Under the pieces are notes generated by a model. The model saw only the letters and a program-made list of their open reading frames with translations, was not told where the DNA came from and searched no databases. DNA of 64,000 nt, taken from positions 186,001-250,000 of the forward strand of contig NZ_FXUE01000002.1 in assembly GCF_900182935.1 (NCBI RefSeq), written 5' to 3'. Origin of the DNA: Fibrobacter sp. UWB10 (GTDB taxonomy: Bacteria; Fibrobacterota; Fibrobacteria; Fibrobacterales; Fibrobacteraceae). This document shows positions 55,613-57,409 of the stretch, in pieces (position 1 is the first letter of the stretch; every line of letters begins with the position of its first letter). A program made the position numbers and the translations under genes.

Positions 55613-55876
55613 ATGTACAATGTAACTATAACCAAAAGAGCCCAAAGAAGTGCTGCGACGATGCCGAAGGCTGTGCAAAACAAGCTCAAGGCTCTCGTTC
55701 AGTCTCTAAAGGTCTCTGGGCCGGTGCAGCCATTGTTTTGGCATTACTCCAAGCTCGGAGGCGACAGGTATCATTGTCACTTGGCGCTAAACTGGGTGGC
55801 ATGTTGGACTTGTAAGGATAGCTCTATAGATATTGAGGTGTATTATGCTGGCAGTCGTGAAAAGGCCCCGTATTGA
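55613..55876 (+). CDS. RelE/ParE-like toxin
   Basis: An 87-residue small basic protein of the RelE-like cytotoxic nuclease group: YNVTITKRAQRSAATMPKAVQNKLKALVQSL forms the N-terminal strands/helices, and HYSKLGGDRYHCHLALNWVACW and IEVYYAGSREKAPY form the C-terminal sheet. The EVYYxGSREKAPY end is typical of a subfamily paired with a downstream HTH antitoxin. Expected to cleave mRNA in the ribosome. It overlaps the antitoxin gene by 32 bp, giving coupled translation with the toxin first. Confidence 0.85.
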   Translation: MYNVTITKRAQRSAATMPKAVQNKLKALVQSLKVSGPVQPLFWHYSKLGGDRYHCHLALNWVACWTCKDSSIDIEVYYAGSREKAPY

Positions 55877-56210
55877 AATCAGGGCGAAACATATCCCCGC
55901 TCCGCTTGTCCGGTTTTTGAAGAATACCTATAAACCGGAGAATGTAATCGTCAGTGACGAAGATGTTGCTGTTCCTTTTGAAGAATCGGAATGGTTTAAG
56001 TCCTTGGAAACGACTCCGGGCGAGATGATTGTGGCAAATAGGGATTTGCGCAATTGGTCGCAAGTGACTTTGGCGGAGAAACTTGGAATCCAGGTGCAAA
56101 ACCTGTGTGCTATGGAAAACGGACGCAGGACGGTTTCCCGTAAGATGGCGGTAAAACTTGGTGAAATCTTTGGAACGGATCCTGCGGCATTCTTTGATTT
56201 CGGGAAGTAG
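55845..56210 (+). CDS. HTH (Xre-type) antitoxin
   Basis: A 121-residue DNA-binding antitoxin. An N-terminal ~60-residue region binds the toxin by analogy. An Xre HTH (residues ~70-115: LRNWSQVTLAEKLGIQVQNLCAMENGRRTVSRKMAVKLGEIF) follows. The ATG at 55845 is inside the toxin gene. A hairpin terminator follows at 56239. With the preceding toxin it makes a reversed-order (toxin-antitoxin) pair, likely autoregulated. Confidence 0.88.
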   Translation: MLAVVKRPRIEIRAKHIPAPLVRFLKNTYKPENVIVSDEDVAVPFEESEWFKSLETTPGEMIVANRDLRNWSQVTLAEKLGIQVQNLCAMENGRRTVSRKMAVKLGEIFGTDPAAFFDFGK

Positions 56211-56268: not shown

Positions 56269-57018
56269 TTATTGGGCGAATTCGACTTTGCTGAAAGACT
56301 TGTAATGGTTGCCGGTGTAATAGATATTGCAACCGCTGCTATAGACGAGGCGGTTGGTTCCTCGGTTGCTTGCGAAGTAATCGACATCGGCTTCGTACCA
56401 GGTCCCTTGGGGCAATAATCCTTCGCGATTTTCGAAATAATCTCCGCCAATCATCACGCCGAGAGTTGTTAAAGGATTGAAATTCCATTTGGTAAAATAC
56501 CGGCCGGTTTTTTGCTCGTAGAGCCTTTTACCTTCGCTTTTGCTCACGTAGTTCGAAGGAAGACTCCCATTTTCGCAAATGTATTTGGCGACTTCATTCT
56601 TTGATGTGTACTGAGTTCCTGGTTGGCTTGTTGAAACTATCGGGGCTGCACTTGAGGAGAATGGCGACGATTTGCCGACAAATGTATAGATACCGGATAC
56701 GATTGCCAAGATAACGCATAGCGCGAACATAAAACTGCGCAGCGATTTGTTCTTTTTATGGTAGCCGGTGTTTGATGAGTAACGCGGTCGCGGTTCTTGA
56801 CGCAAAGCTACGCCTTCGAGGGTGCCTTTCTCGATTCGGGCACCTTTCTCGGTTTTACCGAAACTACTGATGATGATTGTGTCGCCGACTCGTGGCTGTC
56901 GAACAGGATGCCCTAATGCTGAAATGTGGAAGAAAAACTTTGTTCCGTTCACTGTGGCGAAACCGAATCCTTTTTCTTCGTTCCATTGCGTGACGGTAGC
57001 TTTATTTGTGATGGGCAT
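56269..57018 (-). CDS. Cold-shock domain - transmembrane helix - barnase-type RNase fusion
   Basis: A 249-residue fusion. Residues 1-70 are a cold-shock domain with RNP-1 KGFGFA and RNP-2-like FFFHIS. One transmembrane helix (FMFALCVILAIVSGIYTFV, ~96-114) is preceded by HKKNKSLR. Residues ~138-246 match barnase closely: NYVSKSEGKRL, IGGDYFENREGLLP, TWYEADVDY, NRLVYSS, NHYKSFSKV. Barnase catalytic residues are kept: Lys160, Glu209 (general base), Arg219/Arg223 and His238. The basic stretch before the helix predicts the cold-shock domain inside and the RNase outside. No barstar is recognised. The gene lies 46 bp downstream of the 57065 gene, possibly as an operon. I know of no described protein with this order. 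Confidence 0.88.
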   Translation of the reverse strand: MPITNKATVTQWNEEKGFGFATVNGTKFFFHISALGHPVRQPRVGDTIIISSFGKTEKGARIEKGTLEGVALRQEPRPRYSSNTGYHKKNKSLRSFMFALCVILAIVSGIYTFVGKSSPFSSSAAPIVSTSQPGTQYTSKNEVAKYICENGSLPSNYVSKSEGKRLYEQKTGRYFTKWNFNPLTTLGVMIGGDYFENREGLLPQGTWYEADVDYFASNRGTNRLVYSSGCNIYYTGNHYKSFSKVEFAQ

Positions 57019-57064: not shown

Positions 57065-57409
57065 TTAGCTTTCTTCTTTGAATTTCATTATGCTCCAGTG
57101 GCAATCGCATACAATTGAATTTTTGACAATCTTTGCACCTTCGAAATGTAGCGTTTTTATGATTTCTGGATTTGCATTCACTCGAATGTAGTATTCATGG
57201 AAATGATAGTCGCTCATCCTGCATTCTGTTATGGGAATGTTTCTTTCTTTTAATTGATTGATGAGGTTCTTCATCACGTCGCAAATGTAATCTGTACTAT
57301 AGACTGGGCTGTCGTGGTTTGTTGTCTGTGCGGCTTTTAAATCAACTGCTTGTTTTTTGGTGTTGCCGCCGAAGATATTTTTTATGAAAGAAAACGGGTT
57401 GCCCATCAT
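57065..57409 (-). CDS. Small protein next to the barnase fusion, unknown
   Basis: A 114-residue soluble protein, MMGNPF start (a second ATG one codon in is equally possible). After a ~30-residue polar lead it is predicted alpha/beta: YSTDYICDVMKNLINQLKERNIPITE, YHFHEYYIRVNANPEIIKTL, and SIVCDCHWSIMKF with CDC. It does not resemble barstar in sequence. Being upstream on the same strand as the barnase fusion, it is a candidate partner or regulator, but nothing in the sequence proves this. An AAGGAAAA precedes the start. Confidence 0.65.
   Translation of the reverse strand: MMGNPFSFIKNIFGGNTKKQAVDLKAAQTTNHDSPVYSTDYICDVMKNLINQLKERNIPITECRMSDYHFHEYYIRVNANPEIIKTLHFEGAKIVKNSIVCDCHWSIMKFKEES

Follow-up and report, generated by a model that had tools for sequence, protein, structure and literature searches.

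Anchored barnases and membrane-bound cold-shock proteins

The barnase of Bacillus is a secreted enzyme paired with barstar, and it is the textbook example of an RNase that is survived only through a tight inhibitor. Barnases predicted to be lipoproteins or to be anchored by a transmembrane (TM) helix proved frequent in gut Bacillota and Methanobrevibacter as well as in other genomes of Fibrobacter. Cold-shock domains (CSDs) also occur in larger architectures, and 301 CSD-excalibur proteins, nearly all of them proteobacterial, have been reported alongside another CSD architecture, for which a membrane protein is predicted (PMC4679880).

A gene that joins a CSD, a TM helix and a barnase was found in the window, by which we mean the whole 64,000-nucleotide stretch analyzed here from Fibrobacter sp. 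UWB10, whose genome is of Fibrobacter type, 3.48 Mb in size and 100% complete. The open reading frame (56269–57018, minus strand) runs from an ATG at 57018 to a stop at 56269 and is translated into 249 aa; the original prediction gave the same coordinates and named no strand. Fibrobacter succinogenes and further Fibrobacter MAGs supplied the closest named relatives of this protein. A gene with a Fib_succ_major domain lies near it in the window. No report of a CSD-barnase fusion was found in the literature searched.

The RNase domain shares with Bacillus barnase and binase (PF00545) the fold, the catalytic residues and approximately 35–40% identity over the structurally aligned domain, whereas the Fibrobacter form differs from Bacillus barnase in being fused to a CSD-TM segment, in the lack of barstar and in a conserved cysteine pair. 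Similarly, the barnases of gut Bacillota and Methanobrevibacter (L102, L126, L136 and others) are placed behind an N-terminal hydrophobic segment, but they have no CSD and a barstar-like gene is usually adjacent to them. One Clostridia MAG presented two tandem barnase domains after an N-terminal signal-like segment (L131:3007-3864).

The N-terminal part of the fusion has its own counterparts. Three Fibrobacter proteins (L034–L036) presented a CSD-linker-TM-excalibur architecture, and the Aeromonas plasmid protein P0004 had the same CSD-TM-excalibur layout. These proteins resemble the fusion in their N-terminal CSD, basic linker, single TM helix and C-terminal domain predicted to be non-cytoplasmic, but they end in excalibur, a domain whose name denotes extracellular calcium binding, at the C-terminal place where the fusion carries its RNase. 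The CSD-TM segment is a known, reused membrane module, and the barnase cargo is the new part. The original prediction saw a new use suggested by a membrane-tethered form coupled to an RNA-binding domain; this was overstated as regards novelty, as tethered barnases and the CSD-TM-effector layout already exist. The parts of the gene are thus known and their arrangement is new, the unusual points being that a single protein combines CSD-TM with barnase and that it does so without barstar.

The barnase domain

Residues 140–247 (56278–56601, minus strand) are a barnase-type RNase domain by fold and by catalytic residues. The Pfam family Ribonuclease (PF00545) matched residues 145–245 with an E-value of 1.2e-13 and 51.9 bits (cut-off, 24), and phmmer matched residues 142–245 to PDB barnase at 3.7e-16. 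The AlphaFold model of the fusion had a mean pLDDT of 80, with values of at least 90 across most of the barnase domain, and its top Foldseek match was barnase itself (1b21; E = 1.5e-9; TM 0.81 on the target). The phmmer alignment to PDB barnase revealed the full catalytic set, Lys160, Glu209, Arg219, Arg223 and His238, which correspond to Lys27, Glu73, Arg83, Arg87 and His102 in barnase numbering, and a tally over 162 relatives demonstrated that these residues were near-invariant, with very few exceptions. These approaches bore out the barnase identity and the catalytic set named in the original prediction, and the domain is predicted to be enzymatically active.

The cold-shock domain

Residues 6–67 (56818–57003, minus strand) are, on the evidence of the structural model, a divergent CSD, weak by sequence and clear by structure. 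The Pfam CSD profile (PF00313) matched only residues 6–35 of the window protein (E = 0.0022), with 18.3 bits, below the cut-off of 27, and it matched 12 of the 17 fusions, with a best E-value of 0.0015. The model placed strands at residues 6–13, 18–23, 26–31, 47–56 and 59–67, and the domain folded alone reached a pLDDT of 85. Foldseek related this isolated model to CspA and the Bacillus caldolyticus Csp (TMq 0.71–0.73), as well as to YB-1 cold-shock domains, as expected of a five-strand OB barrel of CSP type. Both the RNP1 (KGFGF) and RNP2 (FFFH) motifs are present, and the RNP-motif residues Lys16, Gly19, Phe20 and His31 were invariant among 17 aligned fusions; Trp12 stands one position later than Trp8 of CspB, and several aromatic ligand positions differ from those of CspB. 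The description of this region as a complete CSD therefore held for the fold and the RNP motifs and was slightly generous as to completeness, given the partial and sub-threshold Pfam match.

The same PF00313 profile found no canonical CSD elsewhere in the complete window genome, so the fusion probably acquired its CSD rather than deriving it from a cold-shock protein of the host genome. A canonical cold-shock domain protein (PF00313) was present in 9 of 14 control genomes.

Membrane helix, topology and the cysteine pair

A disordered basic linker, predicted to be cytoplasmic (residues 71–95; 56734–56808, minus strand), and a single TM helix (residues 96–114; 56677–56733, minus strand) separate the two domains. 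The linker fell below a pLDDT of 50 at residues 76–90 of the AlphaFold model. The TM helix expected between CSD and barnase was recovered both as the most hydrophobic stretch of the protein, with a mean Kyte-Doolittle value of 2.47 over the 19 residues 96–114, and as a helix at residues 93–114 of the model. The 20 residues that precede it have a net charge of +6 in the window fusion, and in the 20 fusions scored the charge ranged from +4 to +7 before the helix and from –1 to +3 after it (20 residues each). From this basic N-terminal side we infer an N-in/C-out topology, with the barnase predicted to lie in the periplasm; the positive-inside bias is consistent with the earlier proposal of a CSD inside and an RNase outside. 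Cys101 (56716–56718), in the N-terminal half of the helix, was invariant in 17 aligned fusions, and a cysteine matching its position was also present in the CSD-less TM-barnases. Lipidation at Cys101 was considered and rejected, because the hydrophobic stretch lies mostly after the cysteine and not before it.

Most of the other Fibrobacter barnases carry a lipobox and are predicted to be lipoproteins, and one such protein is encoded in the window genome (G000:C5). That the window genome also encodes the enzyme as a predicted lipoprotein supports an exported RNase. These lipoprotein barnases (for example, G000:C5 and L002:1492-2004) are of the same subfamily as the fusion (60% identity), with the same cysteine pair and no barstar, but they carry a lipobox-type signal in place of the CSD-TM segment.

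Both members of this pair, Cys148 and Cys230, were present in each of the 22 intact fusions and in 54 of the 59 remaining Fibrobacter rows, a set that includes a few duplicates or fragments, and the pair occurred in none of the 80 sequences listed from other phyla. According to the phmmer alignment, the two cysteines occupy barnase residues 15 and 94, on helix 1 and on a central strand, respectively. In barnase, the end of helix 1 packs against Trp94, which makes a disulfide between Cys148 and Cys230 plausible. The window genome encodes a DsbA-like Thioredoxin_4 protein, and no match to DsbB or VKOR was found in it. The pattern of the pair may also reflect only shared ancestry or a single ancestral event.

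Distribution and history of the fusion

The search for further CSD-TM-barnase fusions recovered 22 intact copies, including that of the window, in 21 genomes from three genera of Fibrobacteraceae. Within two close clades, the saturated deep set that includes L065 and L066 being left out, dN/dS was 0.07–0.09 for the CSD and 0.04–0.07 for the barnase, with higher values for the linkers; both domains are under strong purifying selection, and the linkers less so. Errors of assembly, annotation or sequencing and a chance fusion were rejected on the strength of the 22 copies in 21 genomes together with these ratios. A fragment at L045:2695-3021 (G083) carries part of a CSD in frame with the last third of a barnase, without the TM helix, Lys160 or Glu209, and probably represents either a degenerate copy of the gene or a misassembly.

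In the tree, all fusions fell inside one clade of 27 rows (support 100/99), and three CSD-less TM-barnases (L026, L030, L047) were nested inside it (support 99/98). The simplest account of this history is one fusion event followed by one loss of the CSD. The clade also took in two divergent lipoprotein-like Fibrobacter barnases (L042:2444-3052, L044:3163-3816), which had long branches and whose placement in the tree is unsure. Outside the family, no CSD-barnase fusion was present among the 77 loci listed from other phyla, which derive from the 80 matches listed by a scan keyed on barnase motifs and of limited reach. Phage records gave no match to the fusion, plasmid matches were barnase-only or CSD-only, and matches on viral contigs were distant and devoid of a CSD; a phage or plasmid origin was rejected on the basis of these searches.

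Absence of barstar and the gene neighborhood

Barstar (PF01337) was not found in the window genome and was missing in 110 of the 111 genomes of the family, the exception being a MAG with 8% contamination, which accords with the idea of a barnase free of its inhibitor. Among the barnase loci listed from other phyla, 66 of 77 presented a barstar-like ORF. Since no barstar is recognizable, a barnase in the cytoplasm should be lethal, and protection by an inhibitor unlike barstar is possible. The 22 fusion loci had no conserved partner or immunity gene, and the gene order around the fusion varied by locus, ilvC and an SDR-type gene being nearby often but not always. An upstream gene of 114 aa (57065–57409) was considered as an immunity or partner gene and rejected, as it was found at 3 of 22 loci and matched no Pfam family. 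On the other side of the fusion gene and convergent with it, the window carries at 55613–56210 an ORF of 87 aa that matches no Pfam family and overlaps the gene for a 125-aa HTH_3 protein, with sizes and order like those of a HigBA-type toxin-antitoxin pair.

Proposed function and alternative explanations

With moderate confidence, the fusion is regarded as a periplasmic RNase anchored in the inner membrane, whose separation from the RNA of its own cell would depend on topology, and perhaps on a disulfide, and not on an inhibitor. The N-terminal CSD and the basic linker would remain in the cytoplasm, the single signal-anchor helix would cross the inner membrane, and the catalytically complete barnase domain would be located in the periplasm. 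Because the helix lies ahead of the RNase, the nascent chain could insert before the barnase folds, and Cys148 and Cys230 may pair as a disulfide after membrane insertion, so that location, and perhaps also oxidation, would replace barstar. The periplasmic enzyme would cut RNA released by lysed neighbors or leaky cells, or derived from phage and from plant or rumen material, either to scavenge nucleotides or to clear foreign RNA. As to the task of the CSD in the fusion, our guess is that it most likely binds RNA or single-stranded DNA in the cytoplasm, and that this binding would place or stabilize the protein at the membrane, with no contact with the substrate being required.

It is unlikely that the CSD is idle and that the fusion is just another way of anchoring a secreted housekeeping RNase for export, on a par with the lipoprotein form. 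For most Fibrobacter barnases a lipobox suffices, and the nested CSD-less TM-barnases fit a single loss of the CSD with the anchor kept; however, the dN/dS of the CSD is near that of the barnase and its four RNP-motif residues are invariant, which argues against an idle domain. A guard or suicide device, whose outside RNase would reach the cell's own RNA upon a breach of the inner membrane such as phage might cause, the CSD acting as its sensor or trigger, is very unlikely. The entry of the RNase would indeed be toxic without an inhibitor, variable accessory genes are present at several loci, and the HTH regulator adjoins the fusion gene in the window, but no PADLOC model matched the fusion, no defence partner was conserved at its loci, no mechanism of release can be seen, and an enzyme that depended on a disulfide would become inactive in the cytoplasm.

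Even less can be said for contact killing, one of the uses raised in the original prediction. Although barnase domains serve as the tips of polymorphic toxins (PMC3482391), Pfam revealed no toxin delivery domain in the fusion protein, no immunity gene is linked to it across the 22 loci, and the predicted signal-anchor topology would keep the enzyme on the producing cell; an antibacterial toxin is highly improbable and the claim is not supported. Hardly any probability is assigned to a cytoplasmic RNase that would receive RNA from the CSD, the helix being a membrane hairpin or a reversed anchor: a single RNA substrate for both domains would give the fusion an intuitive sense, but this scheme conflicts with the lack of barstar in the window genome, with a charge bias that predicts CSD and barnase on opposite sides of the membrane, and with the exported sister forms and the cysteine pair.

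Implications for the Fibrobacteraceae

The periplasmic, inner-membrane-anchored RNase could be taken a step further, as part of an inhibitor-free barnase lineage in which a signal anchor is combined with a disulfide that would leave the enzyme inactive in the reducing cytoplasm, and in which the cytoplasmic CSD would couple the periplasmic RNase to internal nucleic acid. This extended reading is unlikely; if true, it would mean that RNA sensing is coupled to RNA cutting across the membrane. The Fibrobacteraceae, with catalytically complete barnases and no barstar, make it testable how a barnase can be carried without its antidote. Moreover, the fusion adds an RNase to the domains carried on the CSD-TM module, and it may help to explain the widespread CSD-TM proteins.
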